Assembly (NCBI RefSeq): GCF_017963645.1
Contig: NZ_JAGMWN010000003.1
Coordinates: forward strand, 372,001-436,000
DNA length: 64,000 nt
Reading direction: 5' to 3'
Source of the DNA: Marivibrio halodurans
Lineage (GTDB): Bacteria > Pseudomonadota > Alphaproteobacteria > UBA8366 > Aestuariispiraceae
Below, one piece after another: positions 27,464 to 33,459 of this stretch. The notes under the pieces are model-generated. The model searched no databases and had not been told where the DNA came from. It was given only the letters and a program-made list of their open reading frames with translations. The position numbers and the translations under genes are program-made. The first letter of the stretch is position 1. Every line of letters begins with the position of its first letter.

Positions 27464-30154
27464 CTACGCGGTCGCTTTCTCCGCCGCGTGCTTCCGCGCG
27501 CGGATCGCGGCCTGGGCGGCGGCGAGGCGCGCGATCGGCACCCGGAAGGGCGAGCAAGAGACATAATCCAGCCCGACCCGTTCGCAGAAACCGACCGAGG
27601 ACGGATCGCCGCCATGTTCGCCGCAAATGCCGAGCTTGATATCGGGACGCGTCCCACGCCCGCGCTCCACGGCGATCTCGATCAACTCCCCGACGCCGGC
27701 CTGATCCAGCGTCTGGAAGGGGTCCTGCTCGACGATGCCGCGCTTCTCGTAATTGGTGAGGAAGGCGGAAGCGTCGTCGCGGCTGAGACCGTAGGTCGTC
27801 TGCGTCAGATCGTTGGTGCCGAAGGAGAAGAACTCCGCTGTCTCCGCGATATGGTTCGCGGTCAGCGCGGCGCGCGGCAGTTCGATCATCGTGCCGACGA
27901 CATAGTTGGGGGCCGTGCCCGTCTCCGCCTCGACCGCCTTGGCGACCTTGTCGACCACGGCCTTCAGCAGATCGAGTTCCTTCTTGATGCCGACCAGCGG
28001 GATCATCACCTCGCACAGCGGCGGAGCGCCCGTCTCCTCGCCGACCGCGGTCGCGGCCTCGAAGATCGCGCGGGCCTGCATCTCGCAGATTTCCGGGTAG
28101 CTGTTGAGCAACCGGCACCCGCGATGGCCCAGCATCGGGTTGGTCTCGTGCAGCGCGGCGGCGCGGGCCTCCACCCGCTCCACCGGCACGCCGGTCGCGC
28201 GCGCGACCTCCTCGAATTCCGCCGGCTCGCGCGGCAGGAACTCGTGCAGCGGCGGGTCGAGCAGACGGATCGTCACCGGCTTGCCGCGCATCAGCTTGAA
28301 GATCTCGACGAAATCGGCCCGCTGCATCGGCAGGATGCGGCCGAGGGCGTGGCGCCGCCCCGCCTCGTCGCTGGCCAGGATCATCTCGCGCATGGCGACG
28401 ATGCGGTCGGCCTCGAAGAACATATGCTCCGTGCGGCACAGGCCGATACCCTCGGCGCCGAACTTGGCGGCGGTGGAGACATCCTCCGGCGTCTCGGCAT
28501 TGGCGCGCACCTTCAGGCGCCGCGCCGCGTCGGCCCAGCCCATGACCCGGGCGAAATCACCCGACAACTCCGGATCGACGGTCGGAACCCGGCCCTCGAT
28601 CACCTCGCCGGTCGATCCGTCGATGGTGATCCAATCGCCCGCCTTCACCGTGACGCCGGCGATGGAAAAGGCGCCGCCCTTGTAGTCCACCCGGATTTCG
28701 CCCGCGCCCGCGACGCAAGGCCGCCCCATGCCGCGCGCGACCACGGCGGCATGGCTGGTCATGCCGCCGCGCGTCGTAAGAATGCCCTGGGCGGCATGCA
28801 TGCCATGGATATCCTCCGGCGAGGTCTCGACCCGCACCAGCATGACCTGATGGCCTTCCTGGGCGAGCTTCTCCGCCTCGTCCGCCGTGAAGACGACGAC
28901 ACCGGCCGCCGCCCCGGGCGAGGCCGGCAGCCCCTTCGCGATCACCTTGCGCTCCGCCTTGGGGTCGAGGCGCGGATGGAGAATCTGGTCCAGCGACTGC
29001 GGCTCCACCCGCATCACCGCCGTCTCCTCGTCGATCAGCCCTTCCTCGACCATGTCGCAGGCGATCTTGATGGCGGCCTGGCTGGTGCGCTTGCCGGCCC
29101 GGGTCTGCAACATCCAGAGCTTCTGCTTCTGGACCGTGAACTCGATATCCTGCATGTCGCGGTAATGCGCCTCGAGATTGGCGCGCACCTCGTCGAGCTG
29201 ACGGAAGACGTCCGGCATCGTCTCCTCCATCGCCGGCAGGTCGCTGCCCTGCTTTTCCCGGCCCGCGATGGTCAGATGCTGCGGCGTGCGGATGCCGGCG
29301 ACGACATCCTCGCCCTGGGCGTTCACCAGATATTCGCCGTAGAAGATGTTCTCGCCGGTGGAGGGGTCGCGCGTGAAGGCGACGCCGGTCGCGCAATCGT
29401 CGCCCATATTGCCGAACACCATGGCCTGGACGTTCACCGCCGTGCCCCACGCCTCGGGAATATCGTGCAGGCGGCGATAGGTCACCGCGCGCGCCGTCTG
29501 CCAGGAGCCGAAGACGGCGCCGATCGCCCCCCAAAGCTGTTCCTTCGGGTCCTCCGGGAAGGGGCGGCCCAGCTCATCCTCGACGATTTTCTTATAATCG
29601 GTGATCAGACGCTGCAGGTCCGGCGCGTCGAGTTCCGTATCGAGAATCGCGCCCTTGTCCTCCTTCACGACCTCCAGCGCTTCCTCGAACAGATGATGCT
29701 CCACGCCGAGGACGACGTCGGAATACATCTGGATGAAGCGGCGGTAGCTGTCATAGGCGAAGCGTTCGTCGCCCGAATGCCGGGCGAGGCCGGCCGTCGT
29801 CTCGTCGTTGAGGCCAAGATTGAGGACGGTATCCATCATCCCCGGCATGGAAACCCGCGCGCCCGAGCGGACGGAAACCAGGAGCGGATTCGAGGCATCG
29901 CCGAACGTGGCCCCGACGGTCGCCTCGACCTTCGCCAGCCCGGCCTCGACCTCCGACTTCAGGCTTTCCGGATAGGATTCGCCATTGGCGTAATAATAGG
30001 TGCAGACCTCCGTCGTGATGGTGAAACCGGGCGGGACCGGTAGACCGATATTCGACATCTCGGCCAGGTTGGCGCCCTTGCCGCCCAGGAGATTGCGCAT
30101 GTCGGCCCGGCCTTCCGCCGCGCCGTCCCCGAAGCTGTAGACCCATTTCGTCAT
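27464..30154 (-). CDS. ppdK: Pyruvate, phosphate dikinase
   Basis: 896 residues, the full length of the family. Interconverts pyruvate and phosphoenolpyruvate using ATP and phosphate. The N-terminal ATP-grasp domain begins LLGGKGANLAEMS; the swivelling phosphohistidine domain holds GGMTSHAAVVARGMG with the catalytic His near residue 465; the C-terminal TIM barrel has SFGTNDLTQTTYGLSRDD and the catalytic Cys in GICGEHGGDP. ATG 30154 is preferred (family start MTKWVYSFGDG, AAGGG upstream); a GTG at 30175 overlapping the glyS stop is the alternative. It is 17 bases behind glyS, so it is probably part of the glyQ-glyS transcript. Confidence 0.96.
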   Translation of the reverse strand: MTKWVYSFGDGAAEGRADMRNLLGGKGANLAEMSNIGLPVPPGFTITTEVCTYYYANGESYPESLKSEVEAGLAKVEATVGATFGDASNPLLVSVRSGARVSMPGMMDTVLNLGLNDETTAGLARHSGDERFAYDSYRRFIQMYSDVVLGVEHHLFEEALEVVKEDKGAILDTELDAPDLQRLITDYKKIVEDELGRPFPEDPKEQLWGAIGAVFGSWQTARAVTYRRLHDIPEAWGTAVNVQAMVFGNMGDDCATGVAFTRDPSTGENIFYGEYLVNAQGEDVVAGIRTPQHLTIAGREKQGSDLPAMEETMPDVFRQLDEVRANLEAHYRDMQDIEFTVQKQKLWMLQTRAGKRTSQAAIKIACDMVEEGLIDEETAVMRVEPQSLDQILHPRLDPKAERKVIAKGLPASPGAAAGVVVFTADEAEKLAQEGHQVMLVRVETSPEDIHGMHAAQGILTTRGGMTSHAAVVARGMGRPCVAGAGEIRVDYKGGAFSIAGVTVKAGDWITIDGSTGEVIEGRVPTVDPELSGDFARVMGWADAARRLKVRANAETPEDVSTAAKFGAEGIGLCRTEHMFFEADRIVAMREMILASDEAGRRHALGRILPMQRADFVEIFKLMRGKPVTIRLLDPPLHEFLPREPAEFEEVARATGVPVERVEARAAALHETNPMLGHRGCRLLNSYPEICEMQARAIFEAATAVGEETGAPPLCEVMIPLVGIKKELDLLKAVVDKVAKAVEAETGTAPNYVVGTMIELPRAALTANHIAETAEFFSFGTNDLTQTTYGLSRDDASAFLTNYEKRGIVEQDPFQTLDQAGVGELIEIAVERGRGTRPDIKLGICGEHGGDPSSVGFCERVGLDYVSCSPFRVPIARLAAAQAAIRARKHAAEKATA

Positions 30155-30171
30155 CGCTTCACCCTTCACCT

Positions 30172-32337
30172 TCACCCTTCGATCGCGGAGAAATCCGCGA
30201 CATTTCCCATCACCGTCCGGATACGGGCCAGGAGCGCCAGACGATTGGCGCGCAGATCCGCCTGCTCCGCATTCACGGTCACATCGTCGAAGAAGCCGTC
30301 CACCGGACGGCGCAATGCCGCCAGGGCGCGCATCGCGGCCTCGAAATCCTCGCCCTCGATCGCGCGCGCGACCAACCGGCCGGTCTCCTCCAGCGCATGC
30401 GCCAGCGACTTTTCCGCCCCCAGCTTAAGGGCGTCGCGGTCCACCGCGCGCGCGCCATAGGAGATATCGTCCTTCTTCTCCTCCGCCTTCAGGATGTTGG
30501 CGGCGCGGCGATAGGCGGTCAGCAGGTTGGCGCCGTCCTCGCTCTCCACGAAGCGGGTCAGCGCCGCCACCCGCGCGGACAGGCGCAGCAGATCGTCCTC
30601 CGCCTTCAGCGCGAAGACGGCGGAGACCACATCGTGACGCAAGCCCTGGCTGCGATAATGCGCCTTCATCCGATCGGCGAAGAAGCCGAGAAGATCGGCC
30701 GAAAGCTCCGACAAATCCCGCACGTCGCCTTCGACATGAGGTTGCTCGGCATAGAGCGCCGCCGCCTCCGCGATCAAGTGCGTCAAGGGCAGGCGCACCC
30801 CGTTTTCCAGCACGATCCGGATGATGCCCAGCGCGGCGCGGCGCAGCGCGAACGGATCCTTGGAGCCCGTCGGCTTCTCGTCGATCAGCCAGAAGCCGAC
30901 CAGCGTGTCGATCTTCTCCGCCAGTGCCAGGGCGGTCGAGACCGGGGCCGACGGGCAGGCGTCGTTCGGGCCGGCGGGCGAATAATGCTCGGCGATGGCG
31001 CGGGCCACGCTCTCCGGCTCGTTCTGGGCCAGCGCGTAATAGCGGCCCATGATGCCTTGCAGCTCCGGAAACTCGCCCACCATCTCGGAGACGAGGTCGG
31101 CCTTGGACAGGCGCGCGGCGCGGCGTGCCTCGTTCGCCGGACACTTCTCGACATGGCCGGCGATCACCTCGGCCAGCGAGGCGATACGCTCCACCCGCTC
31201 CGCGACGGTGCCGAGCTTGGCATGGAAGATCACCTTGCCGAGCTTCGGCAGCCGGTCCTCCAGCTTGGTCGAGAGATCCTGGTCCCAGAAGAACTTGGCA
31301 TCCGCCAGCCGCGCGCGCAGCACGCGCTCGTTCCCGGCACGGATGCGCGCGCCCTCGTCCGCCGTCTCCATGTTGGCGACGACCGCGAAGCGCGGCGCCA
31401 GCGTGCCGTCCGGACGCAACAACGAGAAATACTTCTGATGCCCGCGCATGGAGGCCGTCAGCGCCTCGTCCGGGACGTCCATGAAATCGTCGTCGATCCG
31501 CCCGACCAGCACCACCGGCCATTCGACGAGGTTCGTCACCTCGTCGAGCAGCGCCGGATCCTCCTTCACCGTCAGCCCTTCGCGGTCGGCGGCGGTGCGG
31601 ATCTGATCCTGGATCGACTGCTTGCGCTCCTCGGGGTCGAGCAGAACGTAGGCGTCACGCAGTTTCGCCGCGTAATCGTCAAAGCCGGAAACCTTAAAAC
31701 TTCCCTCGCCCAAAAACCTATGTCCAATCGATTCCGCCACTATCTGAATTTTCTCAGACTCGGAAACACCGTCATCAAGTCTTTCCCAAGCATCAAGCCT
31801 TTCTATCTCAGAAAGATTTCGCCTGTTTATCGTTGGAATCTCTAGCTTTTCACCATGAAATACCGCCAACACTTGGTGAAGAGGGCGAACCCAACGAAAT
31901 TGCCCTTCACCCCAACGCATAGATTTTGGCCAATACACTCCACGTATAGCAGAACGAACGATCCCCGGCAGCACGTCGGCCGTGGCGCCGCCGGTCTTCT
32001 CGATCACGGCGAACCAGACGGGGCCCTTCGGGGTCTCGCGCTGCTCGCACTGGTCGAGGCTGTCGAGGCCGGCGGATTTCAGGAATCCCTCGACCGCCTT
32101 GTCCGGCGCGCCGACCTTGGGACCCTTCTTCTCTTCCTTCAGGTCCGGCTGCTTCTCCGGCAGGCCGTCGATGACGAGCGTCAGGCGACGCGGCGTCCAG
32201 AAACAACGCGTCTCGCCATGCTCCAGATTGGCCGCCTTCAAGGCGTCGGTGACGAGGCGGCGTAAATCCTCCGCCGCCGGACGTTGCATGCGCGCCGGAA
32301 TTTCCTCCGAGAACAACTCGATCAGAAGTTCAGCCAC
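30172..32337 (-). CDS. glyS: Glycyl-tRNA synthetase beta subunit
   Basis: 721 residues, beta chain of the alpha2-beta2 enzyme; it binds tRNA-Gly and completes the enzyme with GlyQ. The start is GTG at 32337 (LLIELFSEEIPARM follows directly), with GGAG ten bases before it; the longer frame from 32397 has no family match. The C-terminal anticodon-binding domain and the typical RRPVDGFFDDVTVN are present. Residues about 128-219 are coded by DNA that is about 43% G+C by hand count (31681-31860) while both flanks are near 65%. In that part residues 166-204 look longer than usual before IGHRFLG. This looks like a recombined segment from a lower-GC relative. The reading frame is intact, so function is probably kept. 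Confidence 0.94.
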   Translation of the reverse strand: MAELLIELFSEEIPARMQRPAAEDLRRLVTDALKAANLEHGETRCFWTPRRLTLVIDGLPEKQPDLKEEKKGPKVGAPDKAVEGFLKSAGLDSLDQCEQRETPKGPVWFAVIEKTGGATADVLPGIVRSAIRGVYWPKSMRWGEGQFRWVRPLHQVLAVFHGEKLEIPTINRRNLSEIERLDAWERLDDGVSESEKIQIVAESIGHRFLGEGSFKVSGFDDYAAKLRDAYVLLDPEERKQSIQDQIRTAADREGLTVKEDPALLDEVTNLVEWPVVLVGRIDDDFMDVPDEALTASMRGHQKYFSLLRPDGTLAPRFAVVANMETADEGARIRAGNERVLRARLADAKFFWDQDLSTKLEDRLPKLGKVIFHAKLGTVAERVERIASLAEVIAGHVEKCPANEARRAARLSKADLVSEMVGEFPELQGIMGRYYALAQNEPESVARAIAEHYSPAGPNDACPSAPVSTALALAEKIDTLVGFWLIDEKPTGSKDPFALRRAALGIIRIVLENGVRLPLTHLIAEAAALYAEQPHVEGDVRDLSELSADLLGFFADRMKAHYRSQGLRHDVVSAVFALKAEDDLLRLSARVAALTRFVESEDGANLLTAYRRAANILKAEEKKDDISYGARAVDRDALKLGAEKSLAHALEETGRLVARAIEGEDFEAAMRALAALRRPVDGFFDDVTVNAEQADLRANRLALLARIRTVMGNVADFSAIEG

Positions 32338-32532: not shown

Positions 32533-33459
32533 TTAAAGCTCCCCCTGGCTTTTCAGCCACGCTTCCGCGCACGCCTTGGCCAGCGCGCGCACCCGGCCGA
32601 TATAGGCCTGCCGCTCGGTCACCGAGATCACGCCGCGCGCATCCAGAAGATTGAAGAGATGGCTCGCCTTAAGACATTGATCATAGGCGGGCAGTGCCAC
32701 CCCCCCGTCGACGAGACGCGCGCATTCGGCCTCCGCGTCCACGAAATGGCGCAGCACCATGTCGGTGTCGGCCAGTTCGAAATTATGGCGGGAATACTCG
32801 ACCTCCGCCTGATGATAGATATCGCCATAGGTCATCGTCTCGTTGAAGGCGAGGTCGTAGACGTTCTCGACCCCCTGCACATACATCGCGAGACGTTCGA
32901 GCCCATAGGTCAGTTCCGTCGAGACCGGATTGCAATCGAAGCCGCCGACCTGCTGGAAATAGGTGAACTGGCTCACCTCCATCCCGTCGCACCAGACCTC
33001 CCAGCCAAGGCCCCAGGCGCCGAGCGTCGGGCTTTCCCAATCATCCTCGACGAAGCGGATGTCGTGCACCGACGGGTCGATGCCGATCGCCTCCAGCGAG
33101 CCGAGATAGAGATCCTGGCTGTCCGCCGGGGAGGGCTTCATCAGCACCTGATACTGGTAATAATGCTGCAGCCGGTTGGGGTTCTCGCCATAGCGCCCGT
33201 CCGTCGGCCGGCGGGACGGCTGCACATAGGCCGCCATCCAAGGCTTCGAGCCGAGCGAGCGCAGGGTCGTCGCCCAATGGAAGGTGCCGGCCCCGACCTC
33301 CATGTCATAAGGCTGCAGGATGACGCAGCCCCGATCCGACCAATAACGGTGGAGGGTCAGGATGATGTTCTGAAGCGTCGCCTCGGGCGGGATGCCGAGA
33401 CGCGCGATGACGCTGTCTGGCCGCGCGGGCGGCGCGGGACTTTGGATGGTCTCGGCCAT
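32533..33459 (-). CDS. glyQ: Glycyl-tRNA synthetase alpha subunit
   Basis: 308 residues, catalytic class II chain that activates glycine and works with GlyS. The sequence [20 protein letters not shown], then [20 protein letters not shown], is the unmistakable GlyQ start, and [20 protein letters not shown] holds the motif 2 region. Length is normal (about 300). It is first of the set glyQ, small ORF, glyS and probably ppdK. A small zinc-ribbon membrane protein lies 132 bases upstream on the same strand. Confidence 0.97.

Follow-up and report, generated by a model that had tools for sequence, protein, structure and literature searches.

An AT-rich mosaic island in Marivibrio halodurans glyS lies at a recurrent hotspot of alphaproteobacterial glyS genes

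We analysed a window of 64,000 nucleotides from the Marivibrio halodurans genome. The glyS gene in this window contains an AT-rich island. The island differs in composition from the rest of the gene, has sharp edges and lies between normal flanks. Such islands recur in the glyS genes of other alphaproteobacteria and are absent from control genes. Hence, this part of glyS, here called zone 1, is a recurrent hotspot and the M. halodurans island is not a one-off. The islands probably arose when divergent, AT-rich glyS DNA recombined with the resident gene between conserved anchors, at two hotspots; residues 127–221 of M. halodurans GlyS were replaced in this way after the split from its congener. 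We infer that the island DNA originated in the glyS of another organism.

Features of the locus are listed in Table 1. The product of glyS matched Pfam families tRNA_synt_2f (643 bits) and DALR_1. Its homologues in the PDB, by both sequence and fold, include 7yse and 7lu4. For the AF2 model (mean pLDDT 87.3), the top PDB fold matches were GlyRS chains; 7yse_C had TM-scores of 0.75 (query length) and 0.83 (target length). The full-length family match and the fold both identify the beta subunit of a bacterial (alpha-beta)2 GlyRS. No integrase or mobile element was seen beside glyS within the window. The gene order glyQ-glyS-ppdK is also present in another genome, G427. That genome has an extra glyS fragment, and we considered a second glyS copy as an intermediate. 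This was rejected; the fragment resembles the glyS-ppdK region of a different strain and reads as contamination.

Table 1. Features of the M. halodurans glyS locus (window coordinates) and other genomes with zone-1 islands
Feature	Position	Strand	Details and basis
ppdK (pyruvate, phosphate dikinase)	27464..30175	-	Normal neighbour; translation
glyS, glycyl-tRNA synthetase beta subunit	30172..32337	-	GTG start at ~32337, residue numbering from there; Pfam, PDB homologues
3' junction of island (gene direction)	31660..31690	-	Conserved motif VSGFDD/YAAKLR; change point and codon listing
AT-rich mosaic island, zone 1, residues 127–221	31675..31959	-	GC 45.6%; GC3 0.37 against 0.87 in the rest of glyS
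36-codon loop stretch (PTINRRNLSEIERLDAWERLDDGVSESEKIQIVAES)	31729..31836	-	Holds ~20 extra residues before GHRF; alignments, AF2 model
5' junction of island (gene direction)	31950..31980	-	Codons DVLPGI/VRSAIR; change point and codon listing
glyQ, alpha subunit	32533..33459	-	Normal neighbour; gene order also seen in G427
Other zone-1 cases			G059 (L018), G037 (L026), G122 (L065), G346 (L074), G427 (L155), G015 (L177)

In 200-base windows, GC falls from approximately 0.70 to 0.455 near positions 31700–31899 and then returns to 0.68. The reading frame is open across the whole island and both joints. A first-pass annotation had described this mid-gene drop with an intact frame, and the description is borne out. 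The limits of the island were defined by the maximum-likelihood interval on third-codon-position GC (log-likelihood ratio 53.5). Those first proposed, 31681–31965, prove correct to within two codons. None of 5,000 codon shuffles of glyS was as low in G+C as the island; the minimum was 50.2%. A 456-kb stretch of the contig has 308 predicted genes with 200 codons or more, and the deepest dip among them is in glyS. Four of the next-deepest dips were inspected and correspond to low GC3 in spurious N-terminal extensions, where the ORFs run on over non-coding or antisense sequence. Could the island be an assembly chimera? In favour of this explanation, the assemblies of several other positive genomes are fragmented. 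However, the open frame crosses both joints, the flanks on either side are in their native context within a contig of 486 kb, and islands of this kind occur at the same codons in unrelated assemblies. A chimera is very improbable.

The island protein keeps the GlyS core (WPKSMRWGEGQFRWVRPLH and GHRF), and the loop before GHRF is approximately 20 residues longer. The interval from WPKSM to GHRF is 69 codons in M. halodurans, against 44–50 in most relatives. This confirms the extra length suspected at the outset. AF2 confidence is low in the inserted loop, with pLDDT below 50 at model residues 172–177 and 179–197. Rickettsial palindromic elements insert in reading frames, in surface loops of essential proteins. 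The glyS island resembles them in its in-frame addition to a surface loop, together with low GC, and an in-frame selfish palindromic or repeat element of this type had been suggested for M. halodurans. That suggestion fails. Unlike the rickettsial elements, the glyS island has no palindrome and no repeat family, and flanking homologous sequence has been replaced. The genome has one copy of the segment and no dispersed ones. Its sole inverted repeat is imperfect and spans 10 bases. There is no RNA fold signal and no Rfam match, and similarity to the islands of other genomes is limited to conserved codons. Furthermore, the AT-rich stretch covers the conserved homologous GlyS core well outside the insert. 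Insertion of such an element is thus extremely improbable. We also rejected a self-splicing intron or known structured RNA; Rfam and tRNA matches are absent, and the frame continues across the segment with the conserved residues of GlyS in place. In the islands, no common repeat, palindrome, RNA element or tRNA was found.

Neither the low GC nor the insert is present in the congener, G001, or elsewhere in the family (14 genomes). In a tree of the flanks, M. halodurans GlyS is sister to that of the congener (SH-aLRT 99), inside a supported family. Amino acid identity to the congener is 77–79% in the flanks. One column set gives 0.79 in the flanks against 0.49 in the segment; a different set gives 0.78 and 0.62, respectively. 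Where amino acids are identical, 82% of codons differ from the congener in the island, compared to 36% in the flanks (p = 5e-13). At the same positions, GC3 in M. halodurans and the congener is 0.29 and 0.94 in the island, but 0.87 and 0.90 in the flanks. Judged from these codons, the difference is a block change and not drift. Directly after KSMR, the 13 other sequences of the family have F; M. halodurans has W, as do 200 of the 211 sequences from outside this set. The tree of the segment itself (54 columns) lacks resolution, the M. halodurans end branch is long (0.74) and the AU test for family membership gives p = 0.50. In the separate phylogenies proposed in the first-pass annotation, the flanks group normally with the congener, and the segment tree does not reject membership of the family. 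A mosaic gene contains a sharp-edged block related differently from its flanks. The identities, the flank tree and the change points all describe such a block; the segment tree alone does not discriminate.

Zone 1 extends from WPKSM to GHRF/FDDY. Among 210 testable glyS genes, drawn from across the alphaproteobacterial class, approximately seven have strong AT-rich islands here, M. halodurans included. Left edges lie 9–69 codons before WPKSM and right edges between 7 codons before and 17 codons after GHRF. Beyond conserved codons, the islands are mutually dissimilar. Two of the other cases, G037 and G015, have a close relative that is unaffected or less affected. Between G015 and G043, 70% of codons differ in islands and 17% in flanks, with edges at conserved motifs. 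This is the clearest parallel to the M. halodurans island. For G037 and G017, the equivalent values are 75% and 42%. Close pairs with the greatest shortfall of identity in zone 1 mainly include island-bearing genes. The zone-1 events in G059 and G122 are undatable because their orders are represented by one genome each. A separate observation concerns G043 (L176). Here, zone 1 has normal GC, and RPLH where other family members have RPV(E/Q). Identity to the sister G015 is approximately 0.6 in zone 1 and 0.91 in the rest of glyS. Zone 1 of G043 is possibly an older replacement with GC since adjusted.

Over all genes, GC3 depends weakly on loop length and the association sits in the long-loop tail. 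Islands are present in 5 of 8 genes with a zone 1 of at least 62 codons and in 1 of 99 with fewer than 52. Third-codon composition is nearly uniform in several islands. Both properties are consistent with change in situ, whereby the native segment would have been rewritten either by hypermutation or repair acting locally or by relaxed codon selection in expandable loops. The segment tree, which does not reject family membership (p = 0.50), and the failure to find a donor, described below, also favour this. However, the residues of WPKSMRW, RWVRPL and GHRF were kept while their codons changed en bloc. Island edges are sharp and the family-specific residue after KSMR was lost. The sister pair G015 and G043, with its modest flank change, also argues against in situ rewriting, which we consider quite unlikely.

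The dips are specific to glyS among the genes tested. Dips of 60 codons with z < -5 occur in 23 of 174 glyS genes, compared to 0 of 30 pheT and 0 of 30 ileS genes from relatives, mostly nearer ones (Fisher p = 0.0016). We also scanned 377 genes from the M. halodurans contig and 12 glyS neighbourhoods, chosen mostly around glyS-positive genomes. Apart from spurious-looking ORFs, strong dips were those of glyS. With spurious frames set aside, no comparable dip was present in the 60 pheT and ileS genes or approximately 370 others. Two further observations concern gene integrity and copy number. In G026 (L282), glyS matches contain several in-frame TGA stops and frame changes and pheT is split too; these defects probably reflect poor assembly. 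Outside the class, one genome (a MAG, 76% complete) has two glyS-like matches (G584:C292 and G584:C1).

In a scan of the whole gene, dips fall mainly in zone 1 and in a second cluster. The latter, zone 2, is at approximately residues 500–565, directly after the loop KPTGSKDPFALRR. It falls between the KDPFALRRAALG loop and DLLxFFxDRLK, in the HD domain. Both hotspots, judged by their place in the sequence, adjoin tRNA-acceptor-stem contacts. Clear zone-2 islands are present in approximately 25 of 197 genes. The zone is cassette-like in the G065 family (L319–L348 and L032; glyS residues ~510–600), which is Rhodobacteraceae-like, as judged by similarity to Celeribacter. Many further genera have a short loop. 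In most of the 30 long-insert genomes examined in this family, the inserts are homologous to one another (motif EIADHGVFGAA) and their GC3 is normal. In approximately 10, the same interval holds unrelated sequence with sharply lower GC3 and the flanks are unchanged. Zone 2 has the conserved flanks and exchanged, unrelated centres of a hypervariable locus. Most low-GC cassettes of at least 45 residues have no phmmer match to the cassette of another genome, and normal-GC long inserts average 13 matches in other genomes. In several zone-2 cases, the AT-rich stretch takes in conserved KPTGSKDPFALRR codons. Hence, the incoming DNA would be glyS-like and not random filler.

Ten zone-2 cassettes were searched against protein families. 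None had a PHROGs match; Pfam gave a weak RuvX-like motif and two further matches, both with E above 0.03. The RuvX-like motif is in the cassette of G015 (L177), which contains RTIGLDVGAESIGVAIRD, similar to the N-terminus of RuvX or another RNase H-like nuclease. The match (E = 9e-4) is below the cut-off and could be an in-frame captured gene fragment or chance. The glyS gene of G055 (L283) is an unusually long frame of 874 codons with gaps between matched pieces, which suggests further insertions outside both zones.

The search for donors used the M. halodurans segment as a query. A BLAST-type search had been proposed, and it confirmed a single genomic copy but no donor. Besides that copy, only background similarity was detected in the M. 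halodurans genome, a set of genome contigs (one distant relative), the family genomes, 385 genomes of the class, 398 genomes of the phylum, and collections of phages, plasmids and viral contigs. The highest amino acid identity anywhere in the class, phylum, viral, phage and plasmid samples was approximately 0.65, which is the background level. Pairs of sampled alphaproteobacteria that resemble each other more in zone 1 than in the flanks are not in excess. Therefore, the donors are not among these sampled genomes.

A mobile element or phage might instead target, or carry, the most conserved stretches of glyS together with a recoded AT-rich piece. Later recombination would leave islands where the copies are too divergent for conversion. 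The AT-richness of islands relative to the host, and their restriction to glyS among tested genes, fit this scheme. So do the orphan status of most zone-2 cassettes and the position of the zones, which adjoin two conservation-search patterns, W[PA]KSMR[WF] and PTGS[KR]DP[FY]. Against it, glyS has no integrase or element alongside it in the window, and the ten cassettes lack PHROGs matches and have only weak Pfam matches. One phage contig alone carries an AT-rich glyS piece of alphaproteobacterial type, and the glyS join cuts a phage gene. We consider the scheme unlikely. In that contig (L350 / L354), nucleotides 1–350 are a glyS fragment, including zone 2, joined to phage tail genes. Capsid and tail gene order, judged from translations, led us to call L350 Mu-like. 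Its glyS piece is probably packaged host DNA or a chimera. A prophage integrated in glyS was thus rejected; this single viral contig is not evidence of targeting.

We favour recombination with divergent glyS DNA. A divergent lower-GC glyS, or a piece of glyS on mobile or transformed DNA, would recombine between two short anchors in conserved coding sequence, DVLPGI and GFDDYAAKL. The native stretch would then be exchanged for AT-rich DNA, after the split from the congener, in a manner that keeps the frame and the conserved core (WPKSMRW, RWVRPLH and GHRF) and brings a longer surface loop. Repetition of such events would place AT-rich, often longer and mostly mutually unrelated segments between conserved flanks at two alphaproteobacterial hotspots. 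Recombination with a distant, lower-GC glyS was also the first-pass reading. The normal flank tree, diverged segment, block change of codons and lost family residue support it. Against it, no donor match exceeds background, and the segment tree does not reject family membership (p = 0.50). The islands are also poorer in GC than their host, with next to no cases of the opposite; donors drawn at random would not strictly be expected to give this bias.

Mosaic genes produced by homologous recombination are of a known kind. An example is the mosaic penA (PBP2) of Neisseria, for which the donors are known close relatives. Like glyS, mosaic penA is an essential gene with in-frame, divergent homologous blocks, sharp edges and native flanks. 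In contrast, the glyS block is AT-rich, no donor was found and no selective agent is known for the affected enzyme, a tRNA synthetase. Other genes are hypervariable at the centre with conserved flanks, including those for the flagellin centre and the hsdS recognition domains. These are under immunity, phage or DNA-target selection. Zone 2 of the Rhodobacteraceae-like genomes is similar; between conserved flanks, the centre is exchanged for lineage-unrelated, often GC-poorer sequence. However, GlyS is a cytoplasmic housekeeping enzyme and zone 1 keeps a conserved core. Recurrent AT-rich cassette-like hotspots confined to an essential tRNA synthetase were not found described in the open-access literature searched.

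On its own, the single island in the window would be modest; the recurrence is the surprising and testable part. Intragenic recombination is common, but cassette-like hypervariable zones are unexpected in a housekeeping tRNA synthetase and are absent from control genes of the same genomes. Frequent hits on glyS may reflect local tolerance plus either diversifying selection or targeting by a mobile element. One tentative possibility, to which we give a minor share of our belief, is that the GlyRS beta subunit of alphaproteobacteria is a hypervariable target. Its two loops by the acceptor-stem contacts would be replaced repeatedly by AT-rich cassettes that mostly bear no relation to one another, because some agent selects against the resident version: a factor from a phage, a toxin or bacteriocin, or a selfish element attacking the conserved glyS DNA. 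The literature searched contained nothing relevant on a toxin, phage factor or inhibitor selecting on glyS. Bacterial GlyRS has been proposed as an antibiotic target (PMC9908026).

These data are a warning that glyS is not clean as a phylogenetic or GC marker. If DNA mechanics drive the pattern, the islands are a natural record of short foreign blocks entering essential genes. If selection drives it, the pattern points to an agent that acts on bacterial GlyRS, be it an inhibitor, a toxin or a selfish element. Were GlyRS beta truly a hypervariable target, an essential tRNA synthetase would stand at the centre of an arms race that has gone unrecognised.
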